Origin: Candidatus Scalindua rubra | GTDB taxonomy: Bacteria; Planctomycetota; Brocadiia; Brocadiales; Scalinduaceae | Length of the DNA stretch: 34,905 bases | Reading direction: 5' to 3' | Assembly (NCBI GenBank): GCA_001723765.1 | Contig: MAYW01000033.1 | Span: forward strand, 1-34,905 | The notes under the pieces: generated by a model | What the model saw: only the letters and a program-made list of their open reading frames with translations | The model's database searches: none | What the model was told of the DNA's origin: nothing | Translations under genes and position numbers: made by a program | Shown: positions 4,983 to 22,660 of the stretch, piece by piece | Numbering within the stretch: the stretch's first letter is position 1 | How the letters are laid out: each line of letters opens with the position of its first letter

Positions 4983-5092
4983 TTTGCTTAAGCAAAACTT
5001 TTTTCTGTCATTCCCGCAAAAGCGGGAATCTAGTGTTTAGTTATAATAATCTATATTTCAATAAATTCGAACCTAAATTGAGCAATTTAGGT
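4983..5092. repeat. three small palindromes between pilT and pilU
   Basis: Three separate palindromes lie in order: TTTTGCTTAAGCAAAA (4983-4998), TGTCATTCCCGCAAAAGCGGGAATC (5006-5030), and ACCTAAATTG-AG-CAATTTAGGT (5071-5092). The second belongs to a family seen at least five times in the window. The third is a collapsed form of the CCTAAATTGAGC element that fills other pil spacers. Confidence 0.6.
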
Positions 5093-9666: not shown

Positions 9667-11199
9667 TTATGGAAATTGTTTCTTTAGTATCTTGTATTTT
9701 TCTCTGATGGTGCCAAAGTCCTTAGCACGGGGGCCTACAATAGTAGGTGAAATAAGTATCACCAGTTCTGTTTTATTATTAGACTTCGTCTCTCTGCGAA
9801 AGGCCTTTCCGATGTAGGGGATATCACCTAGAAGAGGAATTTTAGATATATTCTCCTTAATATCATCCTTCATCAAGCCCGCTATTATAACCGTCTCTCC
9901 ATCCTTAATAGTAACTACAGTTTCGGTTTCGCGGGTATCTATAGCGGGTCTGGAGGCATCCCCAGATGTCCTAATTGCAATAAAGGAGGATACGCTGGGG
10001 TGAACTTCCATGGTAATCATTCCTTCAGAATCCACGTGCGGTGTAACATCAAGATATACACCGAAGGTAAAGGCTTCTGCGGTTATAGTAGTAAGTGGAT
10101 CTCCACCAGTTCCACTTTGTTGGGACTCAAAAAACACATCCTGAGTCACACTGCTAAGTATGGCCTTTTGACCATTCAATGTAGAAATCTCAGGGGCCGA
10201 AAGCACCGTTACTTTTCCCTGGGTCTCCAGTGCCCGGATGACGAAATCAAAATCCCTGTGGTCAATAGAAAGCTGAAAAAGTTCCGCTACATCGCCAGTC
10301 CTTGACTCACCGGTAGGACCAGTTTCCTGTTCTAATGCAGGGGCAAAGTCTTGGTTGATAGTTAAAGGGTTTGACTTGCCGGATAGAAATCCGATCTGCT
10401 TAAGTGTCGCATCCCAGTTTATGCCAAATTCACTCCCCTCTTTGAGGGTCACTTCCAACAACTTTGCCCTGATGTGTATCATTGTTTTTACCGACGTCTT
10501 GAAGAGGTCAATGTATTCCTCTATTCGCTTCATGTTTGACCGGTAATCAGTTACTGTTATATAGCCTACTCTTTTGTTTATAATTGATCTTCCAGTATCA
10601 GACAAAAGGTCTTTTATTCCTGACTCCAGTTCAACCCATACATCTACGGTTTCTTCAGTCTCAACAGAACCAAAACTTGCACCGCTACCTCCTTCTTCAT
10701 CTACAGCTCCTGTGACGGCCATGACTGTGCTTTTGGACGTTCTGGAAGCAGTGCTGTAAACAAATTCAAAGGTGCGAGTAACCATTCTGGGATTTGAGAT
10801 CCTGAGAAGGTTATCTTCTATGGTATACTCCAGATTTAATGGTTCCAGTAAAACAGCTAACACTTTACCCAGCGGGAGATCTTTAAAATCTACAGTTACT
10901 CTCCCTGTGACGTCAGGGTCAACTACTATATTATACTCCGGCAACTCCCTGGCAAAGACAAAGAGCACATCTCTTAATTTCATATCCTTCACTGACAGAC
11001 TGTAGAACTTCTCCCTTTCTTTCACCTCCTCCACCATCTGGGTCACGGGCAATTCTTCCATAGGCATAATCTCCCATGGCTTTTGAGTTGCCACATGGGG
11101 AATTGGCATCTTTTTTAAACCTTCCTTTTTTTTATTAAAGCAGGCAACCTTACTCCCCGCAAACAGGAAAATAACGATTAATAAAATAGTTTTCTTCAT
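9667..11199 (-). CDS. pilQ: type IV pilus secretin, PilQ/MshL family
   Basis: A 510-residue outer-membrane secretin. A hydrophobic N-terminus (1-20) ends in VAC, which could be a signal or weak lipobox. An STN/N0-like segment spans about 65-130 (SVKDMKLRDVLFVFARELP, then GRVTVDFKDLPL). LLSDTGRSIINKRVGYITV at about 197-215 resembles MshL. The secretin core covers about 320-495, with VTVLSAPEISTLNGQKA, VTPHVDSEGMITMEVHPSVS and the terminal IPLLGDIPYIGKAFRRETK signature. It forms the channel through which the pilus passes. At 510 residues, with no AMIN domain, it is closer to MshL than to long PilQ. A MITE-like repeat ends about 14 bp before the ATG and no clear Shine-Dalgarno remains. Confidence 0.9.
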   Translation of the reverse strand: MKKTILLIVIFLFAGSKVACFNKKKEGLKKMPIPHVATQKPWEIMPMEELPVTQMVEEVKEREKFYSLSVKDMKLRDVLFVFARELPEYNIVVDPDVTGRVTVDFKDLPLGKVLAVLLEPLNLEYTIEDNLLRISNPRMVTRTFEFVYSTASRTSKSTVMAVTGAVDEEGGSGASFGSVETEETVDVWVELESGIKDLLSDTGRSIINKRVGYITVTDYRSNMKRIEEYIDLFKTSVKTMIHIRAKLLEVTLKEGSEFGINWDATLKQIGFLSGKSNPLTINQDFAPALEQETGPTGESRTGDVAELFQLSIDHRDFDFVIRALETQGKVTVLSAPEISTLNGQKAILSSVTQDVFFESQQSGTGGDPLTTITAEAFTFGVYLDVTPHVDSEGMITMEVHPSVSSFIAIRTSGDASRPAIDTRETETVVTIKDGETVIIAGLMKDDIKENISKIPLLGDIPYIGKAFRRETKSNNKTELVILISPTIVGPRAKDFGTIREKYKILKKQFP

Positions 11200-11213
11200 T
11201 TTTTTTCTATTTA

Positions 11214-11372
11214 ACCTAAATTGAGTGATTTTATATTAATTACATGCCGTTGTAGCCGCTGGCTTTAGCCTGCGTTTTTCATCACTTGATGGGTCTGCGT
11301 AAGTTACGCAACCTCAAGGCATCGGCGTGAGCTCAGCCGAACGGTTGCGGCTACAAAATCGCTCAATTTAGT
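11214..11372. repeat. MITE-like element filling the pilQ-pilP spacer (CCTAAATTGAGC ends)
   Basis: The ends are CCTAAATTGAGTGATTTT (11215-11232) and AAAATCGCTCAATTTAGTTT (11355-11374), an imperfect terminal inverted repeat. The interior has TGTAGCCGC...GCGGCTACA and CAGGCTAAAGCC-type sequences. A GTGAGCTCAGCCGA motif lies at 11327-11340. The element runs from the pilP stop codon almost to the pilQ start. A related copy lies at 12134-12285. Confidence 0.7.
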
Positions 11373-11903
11373 TTAATTAGATACCGGCTTGACCCTCTTG
11401 ATTACCTTCAGTTCTGACTCAGCTTCCTGCAGAGAGAGTGTCCTCTTCTCTCCATCTTCTCTACTTAATATCACATTATCCTCTTGTATATCTATTACCT
11501 GCTCCTCGCCTACCCAATCACCTTCTTTTACCCAAATACCGTTGATGTTAGCCGTGGTATTCTTGCCGCTTTGGTAGATGCCATTCAAATTACTAGCCAC
11601 CATACCTTCTGGAAATTCTTGGTTAGCAGAGAGAATAACACCATCCCTTTTCTCCTTTTTCTTTTCCCGAAACCTCACCCCTACAGGGAGAGAAAAAGGG
11701 TCGCGATCCGTTTTTTCCGCCTCTACAGAGTCACCTTCACTGTCTTCCACTCTCTCCTTCTCTACAGAGCTTTCACTGTCTTCTGCTTTCTCCTCCGCTA
11801 CAGGACTTTCATCGCCTTTTTCTCTTTCCTTACCAAAAGAGGTAATACAGATGCCTATAATTACAAAGGATATTATGGCTACTAATAGCTTATTTCTATC
11901 CAT
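11373..11903 (-). CDS. pilP: PilP/MshK-like pilus assembly protein
   Basis: A 176-residue protein with an N-terminal membrane segment (about 6-22). A Glu/Ser-rich low-complexity linker spans about 25-68 (EEKAEDSESSVEKERVED). DPFSLP at about 68-73 follows, and then a small beta domain with LNGIYQ, TANINGIWVKEGDWVG and VILSREDGEKRTLSL. The DPF motif, the ING...GD order and the position between pilO and the secretin are typical of PilP, which links the inner-membrane PilN-PilO complex to the secretin. The start at 11903 has no clear Shine-Dalgarno, and an ATGGGA-GCAT-TCCCAT hairpin lies just upstream. The family is assigned mainly from context and motif. Confidence 0.78.
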   Translation of the reverse strand: MDRNKLLVAIISFVIIGICITSFGKEREKGDESPVAEEKAEDSESSVEKERVEDSEGDSVEAEKTDRDPFSLPVGVRFREKKKEKRDGVILSANQEFPEGMVASNLNGIYQSGKNTTANINGIWVKEGDWVGEEQVIDIQEDNVILSREDGEKRTLSLQEAESELKVIKRVKPVSN

Positions 11904-12306
11904 AAGTCACACACATGGGAGCATTCCCATTTTTTTGTAGATAATAAAGGTGGATTCGCCCTGTGGAGTAATATAGTAGCTCTACTCCACAGGGTTTAAT
12001 CCACGCTACAGCGTACCATACATGTATTTACATGTAGGGTGGATTAAGGTCAGAGTCCGAATCCACATATACACTAAGGATATATAATGTTGTATCCCTT
12101 TCTTCTATCTGTACCTTTAATACTTATGTTAATTTCAATCTAAATTGAGCGATTTGAGTAGCCGCAACCTTGAGGTTGCGTAACTTATGTGAAATTTCCA
12201 TATACCCGTTAGATGATGAGAAACGCAGGCTAAAGCCTGCGGCTACGATAATGTACAATATAAAATCGCTCAATTTAGGTTCAACATGTTGTATAAATTA
12301 GTAAAA
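11904..12306. repeat. 403-bp spacer pilO-pilP, filled with palindromes
   Basis: No gene is seen. It contains CCTGTGGAGTA...TACTCCACAGG (about 11960-11992), ACATGTA-ttt-ACATGT (about 12017-12032) inside a TGGATT...AATCCA context, and a second MITE-like element at 12134-12285. That element has ends CTAAATTGAGCGATTT and AAATCGCTCAATTTAGG and internal CAACCTTGAGGTTG and CAGGCTAAAGCCTG hairpins. Confidence 0.65.
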
Positions 12307-12951
12307 TTACTTATCAATATTGCTATTGTCAACTTCTTTTTTAGTAAACACATTCATTACAACTTTTGATTCTAACCTGGGATATAGCTTTTCATCGCTT
12401 ACTATATTCAATTTCTCAATTACAATGAAAGTTTCCAGGTTATGAAGTGTCTTTATGAAATCCTCTACTTTGTCATAATTACCTTGTATGTCAATATCGA
12501 AAGACACCCTGATGTACGTAGGCGTTTGCACCTTAGAAACTTGTTCCTTAGACTTTGAATCTCCTTCTTTAGGTTTGGGGGGAGGAGGTGGTTTATGGAC
12601 ACTGGTAGACATATTTATAACTTTTAGATCCAGCCTCTGAGCTTCATCCTCAATAGTCTTTACTAATGGAATAATCTCTCCACTTGTAGCTACTTTGACC
12701 CTGAAGGTGTTGAGTTGTTTCTCAAGCTCTGTTATTTCTTTCTTTAGCTTTTTGACCAAAGGAGCTTTCATAAGAGCAATTTTGATTTTCTTATCCTTTT
12801 CTGCAATCTCCTTGCGCATTGCAGTTATTTTCTTCTGTGAAGGGTCATAATAAAGCATATGAAATCCTGCTACCACAACTATTGCCCCCACAATGCCAAG
12901 CATAAGGCGTTTTTTCTTATCTAATTTAGAGATATCCAGCTTTAGGTCCAG
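12307..12951 (-). CDS. pilO: PilO-like pilus assembly protein, probable CTG start
   Basis: About 214 residues from the preferred start. A short Lys-rich cytoplasmic N-terminus (DLKLDISKLDKKKR) precedes a membrane helix (LMLGIVGAIVVVAGFHMLYY). A coiled coil with Lys/Glu heptads follows, then a proline-rich loop (KPPPPPKPKEG), and a ferredoxin-like C-terminal domain. This is the PilO layout; PilO pairs with PilN in the inner-membrane alignment complex. The in-frame ATG at 12903 has no Shine-Dalgarno and would cut off the basic N-terminus. A CTG at 12951-12949 has a perfect AGGAGG six bases upstream (12963-12958) and is preferred. CTG starts are rare, so this needs confirmation. Confidence 0.8.
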   Translation of the reverse strand: MDLKLDISKLDKKKRLMLGIVGAIVVVAGFHMLYYDPSQKKITAMRKEIAEKDKKIKIALMKAPLVKKLKKEITELEKQLNTFRVKVATSGEIIPLVKTIEDEAQRLDLKVINMSTSVHKPPPPPKPKEGDSKSKEQVSKVQTPTYIRVSFDIDIQGNYDKVEDFIKTLHNLETFIVIEKLNIVSDEKLYPRLESKVVMNVFTKKEVDNSNIDK

Positions 12952-15141: not shown

Positions 15142-16512
15142 TTAAAGTGAACTAAAGTGACTAAAGTTAACAGCGAATATCGATTGTTGATTGTCAGTAG
15201 TCATATAATCAAGATACAAGTTACAAGAAACAAGATACAAGTTGCAAGAAACAAGATACAAGATACAATAACCAAATAAACACCAAATTCCAATAATCAA
15301 AAAAAGTAGTTCGGAAAATGTTTGGTTATTGGTATTTATTTGTATCTTGGTTATTGGTGATTTATTTATATCTTGTATCTTGTTTCTTTCTAAATTAACA
15401 ATCATCAATATTAAATAGACACTAATCCGCAGACACGGCTTCCTGCATGATAAAACTTTTATACTGGTTCGTATCGAATCCAGGGCATCGAAATAATCCT
15501 CCTTTATCGTAATATATACAGGGTTGCCTTTACCTTCCAGCAAGTTATCATCGCCGTAATGAATTATGCCACCATCAAGGCTTGGCTCATCGGCATTCCC
15601 TCCACCAGTCATCGTAATATCACCTTCAGATATTATTATACCTCTCACCACTGAATTACCTCTTACAGTTACATCCCCTTTTACCCAGAAAATACCCCAT
15701 ACCGTTCTATTTCCATGAACCCTAAGATCGCCACCAACGTAGGTTACATTTGGTATATCATCCGAATAGTAAAAACTACTGTTGGGATAATTATTATCAG
15801 GACTAAAGTTTCCACTATAATAGTGGTCTTCATCTTCTTCATCCTGGTCTCTGGCCTGGATATCAAAGATTTCGGAATCCAATGTATGTGCCGGTCGGTA
15901 CACTATACCCTCCTCGCTGGTTCCATTTGCAGGTTCATCCGCATGGTTGCCATAAGCAACGGTCGCATCTGTGGTATGATTACTCATATCAAAGTGTGCT
16001 CTACCAGTTCCTTTAATACTACCATCTGTATGTATACCAGGGGATACAGATAAATCACCGCTGCTTCCAACTTTAATTTCTACCTTGATCTTTATCTGCC
16101 TCTTTGCCACTGTCTTACCACCTCTTTTTACCATGCCCGTAGCCGTTATCGTATAATGCTTTGTTGATGAAGTACTATCATCATCCCCGTCATCATCGTC
16201 ATCATCATCCCCGTCATCATCGTCATCCCCATCGTCATCGTCATCCCCATCGTCATCATCATCGTCCCCACCAGCATAGGCATCCTGGAGGATAAACATC
16301 ATGGCTATTTCTGACAGATTAAATTTCTTGAGGGAATTTATGCCGATCCGAGTAGACACCTTCTGTGTACCCATTAAAGAACTAAAGACTCCCGCCATTG
16401 CTATCATTATGACCAATATCATTATGATGGCAAACAGGGAAATCCCTCCATTTCTATCGAATGATATTTTAAATTTCCCTAATAATCTGGTAAATCTATT
16501 TATTCCCGTCAT
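15142..16512 (-). CDS. PilX-like minor pilus-associated protein with Asp-rich tract; 3' end probably frameshifted
   Basis: A 456-residue frame. Residues 20-47 (RNGGISLFAIIMILVIMIAM) form a PilX_N-type hydrophobic N-terminus. Residues 83-112 are almost pure Asp with spaced Gly (GDDDDD units). A beta-rich domain follows with repeated GGDLRVHGN, KGDVTVRGN and EGDITMTGG strands, like a polymer-forming/cell-surface fold. About residues 352 to 456 read through a palindromic repeat and look non-native (YLVSCNLYLVSCNLYL). In a neighbouring frame, DTNQYKSFIMQEAVSAD ends at a stop at 15422-15424, the likely original C-terminus. It leads the pilus cluster, with AGGAGAAGG before the ATG. Confidence 0.72.
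   Translation of the reverse strand: MTGINRFTRLLGKFKISFDRNGGISLFAIIMILVIMIAMAGVFSSLMGTQKVSTRIGINSLKKFNLSEIAMMFILQDAYAGGDDDDDDGDDDDDGDDDDDGDDDDDDDGDDDSTSSTKHYTITATGMVKRGGKTVAKRQIKIKVEIKVGSSGDLSVSPGIHTDGSIKGTGRAHFDMSNHTTDATVAYGNHADEPANGTSEEGIVYRPAHTLDSEIFDIQARDQDEEDEDHYYSGNFSPDNNYPNSSFYYSDDIPNVTYVGGDLRVHGNRTVWGIFWVKGDVTVRGNSVVRGIIISEGDITMTGGGNADEPSLDGGIIHYGDDNLLEGKGNPVYITIKEDYFDALDSIRTSIKVLSCRKPCLRISVYLILMIVNLERNKIQDINKSPITKIQINTNNQTFSELLFLIIGIWCLFGYCILYLVSCNLYLVSCNLYLDYMTTDNQQSIFAVNFSHFSSL
15200..15402. repeat. long inverted repeat with ACAAGATACAAG-type tandem units
   Basis: The left arm (about 15208-15300) has GATACAAG-TTACAAGAAACAA units in tandem and then AATAACCAAATAAACACCAA. The right arm (about 15326-15390) is its near complement, with TTTGGTTATTGGTATTTATT and ATCTTGTATCTTGTTTC. 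It resembles the AAATTACAAATTCC block at 13138-13300 in composition and design. It currently encodes the last residues of the upstream frame. Confidence 0.6.
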
Positions 16513-22302: not shown

Positions 22303-22660
22303 AACGTCTTTCTAAGCTAAATCGCATTAACACTCAAGTCGAAATGTTATAAGGAGCTTATATATATTATATTTCACAAGGATTTCTTTTTATTGCAAAA
22401 AAATATTTTATACAATTCGGATGGATATTTCCGTGGTTAACTTTTCAAAATTCACCTCGGACGCTGTCCCTATTTTCCAAAACTTGTTGAATTTACTCTG
22501 CATAGATGCTAAGAATATTACAGGAAACACGACACTTTGTCATTCCCAACTCGATTGGGAATCTATTTACATTACCATTAGTATCCACTTGCCCTGTTAG
22601 ATAGTAAACATCTAACAGGGTGAATGCATATCTGTGTTAGTCTGTGGCCCATAATTTACA
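22303..22660. promoter_or_regulatory. divergent control region between sigma and TorD-like genes
   Basis: This 358-bp divergent spacer has an AT-rich part nearest the sigma gene (22340-22420), including TATAAT-like strings. It also has TGTCATTCCCAACTCGATTGGGAATC (22538-22562) and CCCTGTTAGATagtaaacATCTAACAGGG (about 22593-22621). The second hairpin resembles the CCCGTTAGAT one near 13021. A TGTCCCTATTTTCC string (about 22466-22480) recurs before tatA and near 25050. No promoter can be fixed with confidence. Confidence 0.4.

Follow-up and report, generated by a model that had tools for sequence, protein, structure and literature searches.

The two palindromic elements that fill spacers of the pil operon of Candidatus Scalindua rubra are very probably MITEs that were mobilised by an IS1380-family transposase, carry REP hairpins as cargo and, having inserted in the operon, are tolerated there. 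The window, that is, the whole stretch of DNA analysed here, is contig MAYW01000033.1 at its full length of 34,905 nucleotides. In the origin that we propose, an IS1380-family DDE transposase would recognise the 17-bp ends of the elements and make 5-bp TNNNA duplications of the target; both copies would be non-autonomous, and their movement in trans is suggested by the common ends, the duplications and the existence of an autonomous partner. The cargo would consist of two unlike REP hairpins, tagged with GTAG and arranged head to head, whose origin lies outside the transposon. One copy would have landed in the pilO-pilP spacer and the other exactly at the pilP stop codon, where the duplicated target would preserve the TAA, leaving pilP intact and shifting pilQ from roughly 10 to 173 nt downstream. 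When transcribed, the element is predicted to fold as a closed stem with hairpins; it would be tolerated as a read-through RNA structure and at most decouple the translation of pilQ or modestly alter transcript stability.

The minus strand of the window carries a pilM-pilN ORF, pilO (12307 to 12903; Pfam PilO), pilP (11373 to 11903; assigned by its position and by its likeness to the gene of relatives, with no Pfam hit) and pilQ, for the secretin (9667 to 11199; Pfam Secretin and STN; ATG at 11197-11199). Copy 1 (11215 to 11372; 158 bp) lies in the pilP-pilQ spacer, upstream of pilQ, and copy 2 (12139 to 12279; 141 bp, the canonical form) in the pilO-pilP spacer, downstream of pilO. Both have inverted ends of 17 bp, CCTAAATTGAGCGATTT, with one mismatch in each end of copy 1. 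TTCAA stands on either side of copy 2 (12134 to 12138 and 12280 to 12284), and TTTAA on either side of copy 1 (11210 to 11214 and 11372 to 11376), TNNNA being the type of 5-bp target duplication found with these elements. The right end of copy 1 falls at 11371 or 11372; in strict register its flanks read TTTAA/TTAAT, with two mismatches, and the duplication is perfect only if the right end has been shortened by one terminal base. The right-hand duplication overlaps the pilP stop codon (11373-11375), and since this codon lies inside the duplicated target, the insertion would have rebuilt it; pilP is intact. In copy 1, hairpin A (11252 to 11274, plus strand) reads GTAGCCGCTGGCTTTAGCCTGCG, and hairpin B (11308 to 11355, minus strand) is formed by GTAGC and CGCAACC...GGTTGCG, with a nested 25-bp insert, the palindrome CGTTCGGCTGAGCTCACGCCGATG, in its loop. 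In copy 2, hairpin B (12158 to 12180, plus strand) reads GTAGCCGCAACCTTGAGGTTGCG and hairpin A (12224 to 12246, minus strand) GTAGCCGCAGGCTTTAGCCTGCG; TTTCTC follows the latter on the transcript strand, and this combination scored as terminator-like.

Part of this anatomy had been recognised in an earlier note on the same DNA. It placed both copies correctly, give or take the target duplications, had copy 1 reach, as it does, from the stop codon of pilP to some 14 bp short of the pilQ start, and described shared terminal inverted repeats and internal hairpins (GTAGCCGC...GCGGCTAC), which both copies indeed have. It also described a third site as a collapsed palindrome of the same ends. A 20-bp palindrome of two fused element ends is present there, between the two pilT-type genes (5072 to 5091), and its exact pattern is beyond chance (expected 0.01, for a pattern picked after it had been seen), but its flanks, TCGAA/TAAAA, hold no 5-bp duplication and leave its origin from a shrunken copy unproven; it is a possible remnant of an element. 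The window also has an ORF with a long Asp/Gly-rich run, with AT-rich inverted repeats near its 3' end (15142-16512).

Relatives show how the two spacers look elsewhere (G010 was taken as Scalindua OFTM1, pilQ agreeing between the two in contig number, coordinates and score; sequence identity shows G014 to be Scalindua sp. SI037_bin72 and G011 the Hainich Brocadiaceae bin). The comparison of pilP-pilQ spacing, suggested earlier as a check, uncovered uninterrupted junctions: pilP and pilQ are 173 nt apart here as against 9 nt, element-free, in Scalindua sp. OFTM1 (L131), and they overlap in L130 and L132, likewise element-free. In L129 and L133 (from G005 and G014), the spacers measure 699 and 978 nt, and a search of both for end-pairs found none. 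Because these wide, element-free spacers occur in two of the five relatives with a close pilQ, tight spacing is dispensable in the family. Copy 1 thus interrupts a formerly tight junction, in a family in which wide spacing is evidently tolerated; the pilP-pilQ junction is the one place where an empty site in relatives is demonstrated. At 403 nt, the pilO-pilP spacer here exceeds that of L130 and L131 (about 120 nt), copy 2 and other palindromes each contributing a part. A second nested palindromic repeat in this spacer (11945-12071), with outer arms around GTGGATTCG/CGAATCCAC and inner arms CCCTGTGGAGTA/TACTCCACAGGG, makes up much of its remainder.

The missing Shine-Dalgarno sequence of pilQ, to which the earlier note had drawn attention, is real: no GGAG-type site precedes the gene here or in L131, while L129, L130 and L133 have one. 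The proposed tie to the insertion is not supported. The bases directly upstream of the pilQ ATG fall outside copy 1 and the site is also missing in the element-free OFTM1, the closest of the relatives that have a short spacer and no element, so the insertion is not the cause of its absence. Folding of the element transcripts gave z scores of -5.2 and -6.5, and an effect on pilQ expression, through the lost tight spacing and the 158-nt folded insert, is possible. A stronger version, in which copy 1 polarises or decouples the operon, lowers PilQ and acts as a selected regulatory insertion, would draw on the increase in spacing from about 10 to 173 nt, on the folded insert itself and on the want of a Shine-Dalgarno sequence for a fresh start at pilQ. 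We consider it unlikely, given that G005 and G014 have 699 and 978 nt at this place with no element, and that the terminator-like score is limited to copy 2; copy 1 was dropped as a candidate terminator. For pil biology, the result is an ordinary one: an insertion that is seemingly tolerated.

Copies are numerous. With copy 1 as the query, 95 matching pieces were found in its own genome (5.19 Mb in 443 contigs; E up to 10). End-like sites with at most three mismatches number 124 in that genome, as against 20 for a reversed control, and the pattern of an end plus GTAGCCGC occurs 18 times, as against 0 for the control. The first 100 loci gave 35 end-pairs at most 400 bp apart, one of which is a spurious outer pairing; over all loci then collected there were 70, or 69 once the spurious pair at L070 1313-1641 was dropped. 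Perfect 5-bp duplications flank 36 of these 69 elements, as against a mean of 2.4 if left flanks are randomly assigned to right flanks, and 52 have duplications with at most one mismatch (mean of 14.0 with re-paired flanks). Among the 36 perfect duplications, the first base is T in 32 and the last is A in 35. Most copies measure 129-277 bp and have no coding capacity; the elements are thus short, non-coding and multicopy, with terminal inverted repeats, a target duplication and the ends of an autonomous transposon, as expected of bacterial MITEs. None of 38 own-genome elements is contained in an ORF of at least 80 aa (ORFs called mechanically). With ten elements at contig or locus edges set aside, 23 of the 28 that have a gene on each side lie between co-directional genes, a count that comes without a background rate and from which we claim no enrichment.

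The Scalindua family consists of anammox bacteria. The 141-bp form finds matches in all 17 genomes of the family of the window, which includes Candidatus Scalindua (in G004, G006 and G016 in part only), and in 39 of the 61 genomes searched overall; outside the family, most of the matches listed are short and span a hairpin. In named genomes, a pattern scan returned 23 stretches, mostly from Candidatus Scalindua, some labelled Brocadiaceae or Planctomycetota. Some other stretches bear the labels Desulfobacterales, Deltaproteobacteria or 'Bacterium BMS3Abin06'; elements on contigs so labelled (L110, L111, L116, L122, L112 and L124) may reflect either horizontal spread or mis-binning. In a plasmid collection, the element had no match and the IS one weak match.

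Full-length transposons of 1.7-1.9 kb with matching ends are present in G009, G005, G004, G021 and G019. Seven of the eight loci that contain both ends have perfect 5-bp duplications (L238, L239, L246, L250, L254, L242 and L243, but not L240), although L239 and L246 have the same flanks and may represent one event. The transposase of L239, from the relative G005, matches the NCBIfam IS1380 model NF033539 with 232.3 bits (cut-off 180) as well as Pfam DDE_Tnp_1_4. As these IS1380 transposons share both ends and duplications with the small elements, the latter are best read as IS1380-derived MITEs. The earlier reading of MITE-like mobile elements is thus supported, by the shared ends, the target duplications, the autonomous partner and the uninterrupted junction in a relative; what it missed is the REP-pair nature of the interior. 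Set beside the printed ends of the IS, this interior has no apparent sequence in common with it beyond the ends, and the element is accordingly probably not a simple deletion derivative. In the genome of the window, whose assembly is broken at repeats, no intact partner IS is assembled. A truncated transposase gene (Pfam 16.9 bits, below the cut-off of 34.7) lies beside one element end on contig C76, and the same end is also near several contig ends, which would be expected if a longer repeat interrupts the assembly there. The best own-genome match to PF13701, an IS1380-type gene on C288, was dropped as a partner, its locus lacking these ends. The transposase query matches only 9 of the 61 genomes and none of several element-rich relatives (e.g. 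G002 and G010), so that the transposase has a patchy distribution and the small element a general one.

REPs are common in bacteria. The interior of the elements is a head-to-head pair of unlike hairpins with GTAG at each outer foot, A GTAGCCGCAGGCTTTAGCCTGCG and B GTAGCCGCAACCTTCAGGTTGCG; judged from its sequence, it is a GTAG-tagged REP pair and probably not an IS remnant. In a survey of 122 elements (126 end-pairs minus same-locus repeats), 94 have a GTAG-tagged hairpin at both ends; of 221 GTAG tags in these 122 elements, 211 have 7-nt arms that pair at six or more of the seven positions, and 141 have arms that pair at all seven. Hairpin A has 57 matches in the own genome. Its 50 distinct readable contexts (with identical copies merged) include 27 that are enclosed by two IS1380 ends and 7 next to a single end, the rest being outside. 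Some of the hairpins ride in other elements: six near-complete copies of a second, unrelated MITE, T2 (L266, L268, L269, L277, L279 and L299; AACTTCAC ends and an apparent TTAG-type duplication), contain a shortened version of this REP pair. No T2 copies free of REPs were found; since all six near-complete copies contain the hairpin pair, they may go back to one capture followed by amplification. Three further contexts of hairpin A resemble, by eye, a third family. Conversely, a second subfamily with IS1380 ends (L080, L084, L085, L089 and L199) has GTCATTCCC...GGGAATGAC hairpins in place of the GTAG hairpins; these resemble CGTC REPs with T as the first tag base, a likeness that we draw from the published description rather than from an alignment. 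The elements of this subfamily are about 200-260 bp long and have a common non-palindromic tail.

An interior of this kind invites another reading, in which the element is itself a REP or REPIN that a RAYT (HUH tyrosine) transposase mobilises, with the CCTAAATTGAGC ends being merely the palindrome that this enzyme favours as a target. The GTAG tag and the head-to-head layout are those of GTAG REPs, dimers of which are on record within palindromes (PMC3733652); the genome has 25 Y1_Tnp matches; and hairpin A is found outside these ends too. We nevertheless hold this origin to be distinctly improbable. The 5-bp duplications lie at the outer ends, which are also those of a DDE transposon, and a look, not systematic, for end-pairs lacking any hairpin met none. 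Moreover, neither hairpin A nor hairpin B lies near any of the 25 own-genome Y1_Tnp loci (flanks of about 1.5 kb per side in L091-L100 and of about 0.6 kb in the other 15, cut at contig ends), and no perfect hairpin with a GTAG or GGAG foot turned up in the ten loci tried. A link of the hairpins to RAYTs was rejected on this count: of these 25 loci, none has the REPs of the elements on its flanks, as the cognate RAYT gene of a REPIN/RAYT system would. That these elements serve the pil operon as conserved regulatory RNA structures rather than being insertions, for which their strong predicted folding, their presence in one operon and the terminator-like score of one hairpin could be cited, is scarcely credible when dozens of copies lie near other genes, relatives lack the element at pilP-pilQ (uninterrupted in L131) and a search of Rfam gave no match up to E 1.

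The REP cargo of the IS1380-type MITEs is variable in an uncommon manner. Compared with the 141-bp reference, 58 elements contain 22 inserts of at least 15 bp, which are not independent events: two lie in the loop of hairpin A, six in the loop of B, eight at the B tag next to the end and six elsewhere. L123 has a palindrome inside a palindrome inside hairpin B. The palindrome at 22582-22630 of the window (GCCCTGTTAGAT/ATCTAACAGGG) has a word that is also nested in hairpin loops of L013, L024 and L062. Orthologous sites were sought among the 126 end-pairs and gave seven rows, of which four match a locus to itself and one (L341) matches two copies that lie next to each other; a pair between C108 of the own genome and S. 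sediminis is solid, and a pair between C219 and Scalindua OFTM1 comes from a separate comparison, with one end missing. Another own-genome candidate, C317 with G008, was discounted, as it matches on one side (77% over 270 bp) with unlike elements at different insertion points. At C219 and its OFTM1 counterpart, between the same flanks, hairpin A reads CGCAGGCTAAAGCCTGCG in one genome but CGTTCGCCCAGGCGGACG in the other, and different palindromes occupy the loop of B; a single base differs in the stretch that separates the hairpins. At C108, the flanks are 85-86% identical and the elements have opposite orientations; once inverted, about 100 nt match with two differences, one of them the outermost base, which is in register with the flank, and hairpin B is also different. 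This pair fits a single insertion followed by an inversion between the ends. In this orthologous pair, inverted between the genome of the window and Scalindua sediminis (L013 1502-1742 and L126 3021-3182), the interiors resemble each other far more than the flanks do.

Of the four hairpins compared at these two orthologous sites (C219 and C108), three have a wholly different stem or apex, as against one or two differing positions in the spacer. The cargo thus looks modular and interchangeable, which is unusual, and to judge from these sites, hairpins would change in their entirety rather than by single bases, a point that bears on the evolution of palindromic repeats. The alternative hairpins are present in other copies in the same genomes or family, which makes plain gene conversion between dispersed copies the cheapest explanation; it would swap hairpins with no new process. 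The wholesale changes, together with the C108 inversion, the same pair in T2 and the presence of GTAG and CGTC-like pairs within the same IS1380 ends, also prompt a tentative suggestion, which we lean against: that REP hairpins are exchangeable modules, with a structure-acting process that swaps palindromes at GTAG slots or inserts them into loops and an IS1380 transposase that provides long-range movement.

MITEs and REP dimers are known kinds of element; REP pairs enclosed by IS1380 ends may be new. Listings of open-licence papers on IS1380 MITEs, REP-MITE chimeras, anammox MITEs and nested palindromes showed no description of REP dimers within IS1380 ends, which is weak evidence of absence. 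Like IS1380-family insertion sequences, of which ISEcp1 is an example, the elements have the shared end sequence and the 5-bp duplication, and the transposase family occurs in relatives; unlike them, they are mostly 129-277 bp long and non-coding, with a foreign interior. REPINs and BIMEs are paired inverted REPs with a conserved spacer, an arrangement common to the elements described here, which differ in being enclosed by the ends of a DDE transposon, with no linked RAYT found. The Tn3-derived TIMEs are likewise miniature elements; they too carry the ends of a transposon, are presumed to be mobilised in trans and are predicted to form RNA structures, but they differ in having Tn3 ends and in being usually single-copy, and the account that we draw on does not mention REP cargo (PMC4133298). 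The nearest likeness is with the head-to-head tagged hairpins within a longer palindrome described for GTAG-15 dimers of A. variabilis and CGTC-1 dimers of H. neapolitanus, and with the GTAG-23 elements that small palindromes enclose in T. roseum (Di Nocera et al., 2013; PMC3733652). That description calls the palindromes targets and gives neither a transposase nor a target duplication, whereas here they are IS1380 ends with 5-bp duplications. CGTC repeats were reported there as having no association with transposase genes, a broad spectrum of transposases being allowed as their possible movers (PMC3733652). Here, in contrast, a GTAG pair and a CGTC-like pair both occur within the same ends, so that both hairpin types ride within the ends of one DDE transposon family; if hairpins are indeed exchangeable modules, the CGTC REPs, for which the 2013 survey described no associated transposase (PMC3733652), would gain a way to move.
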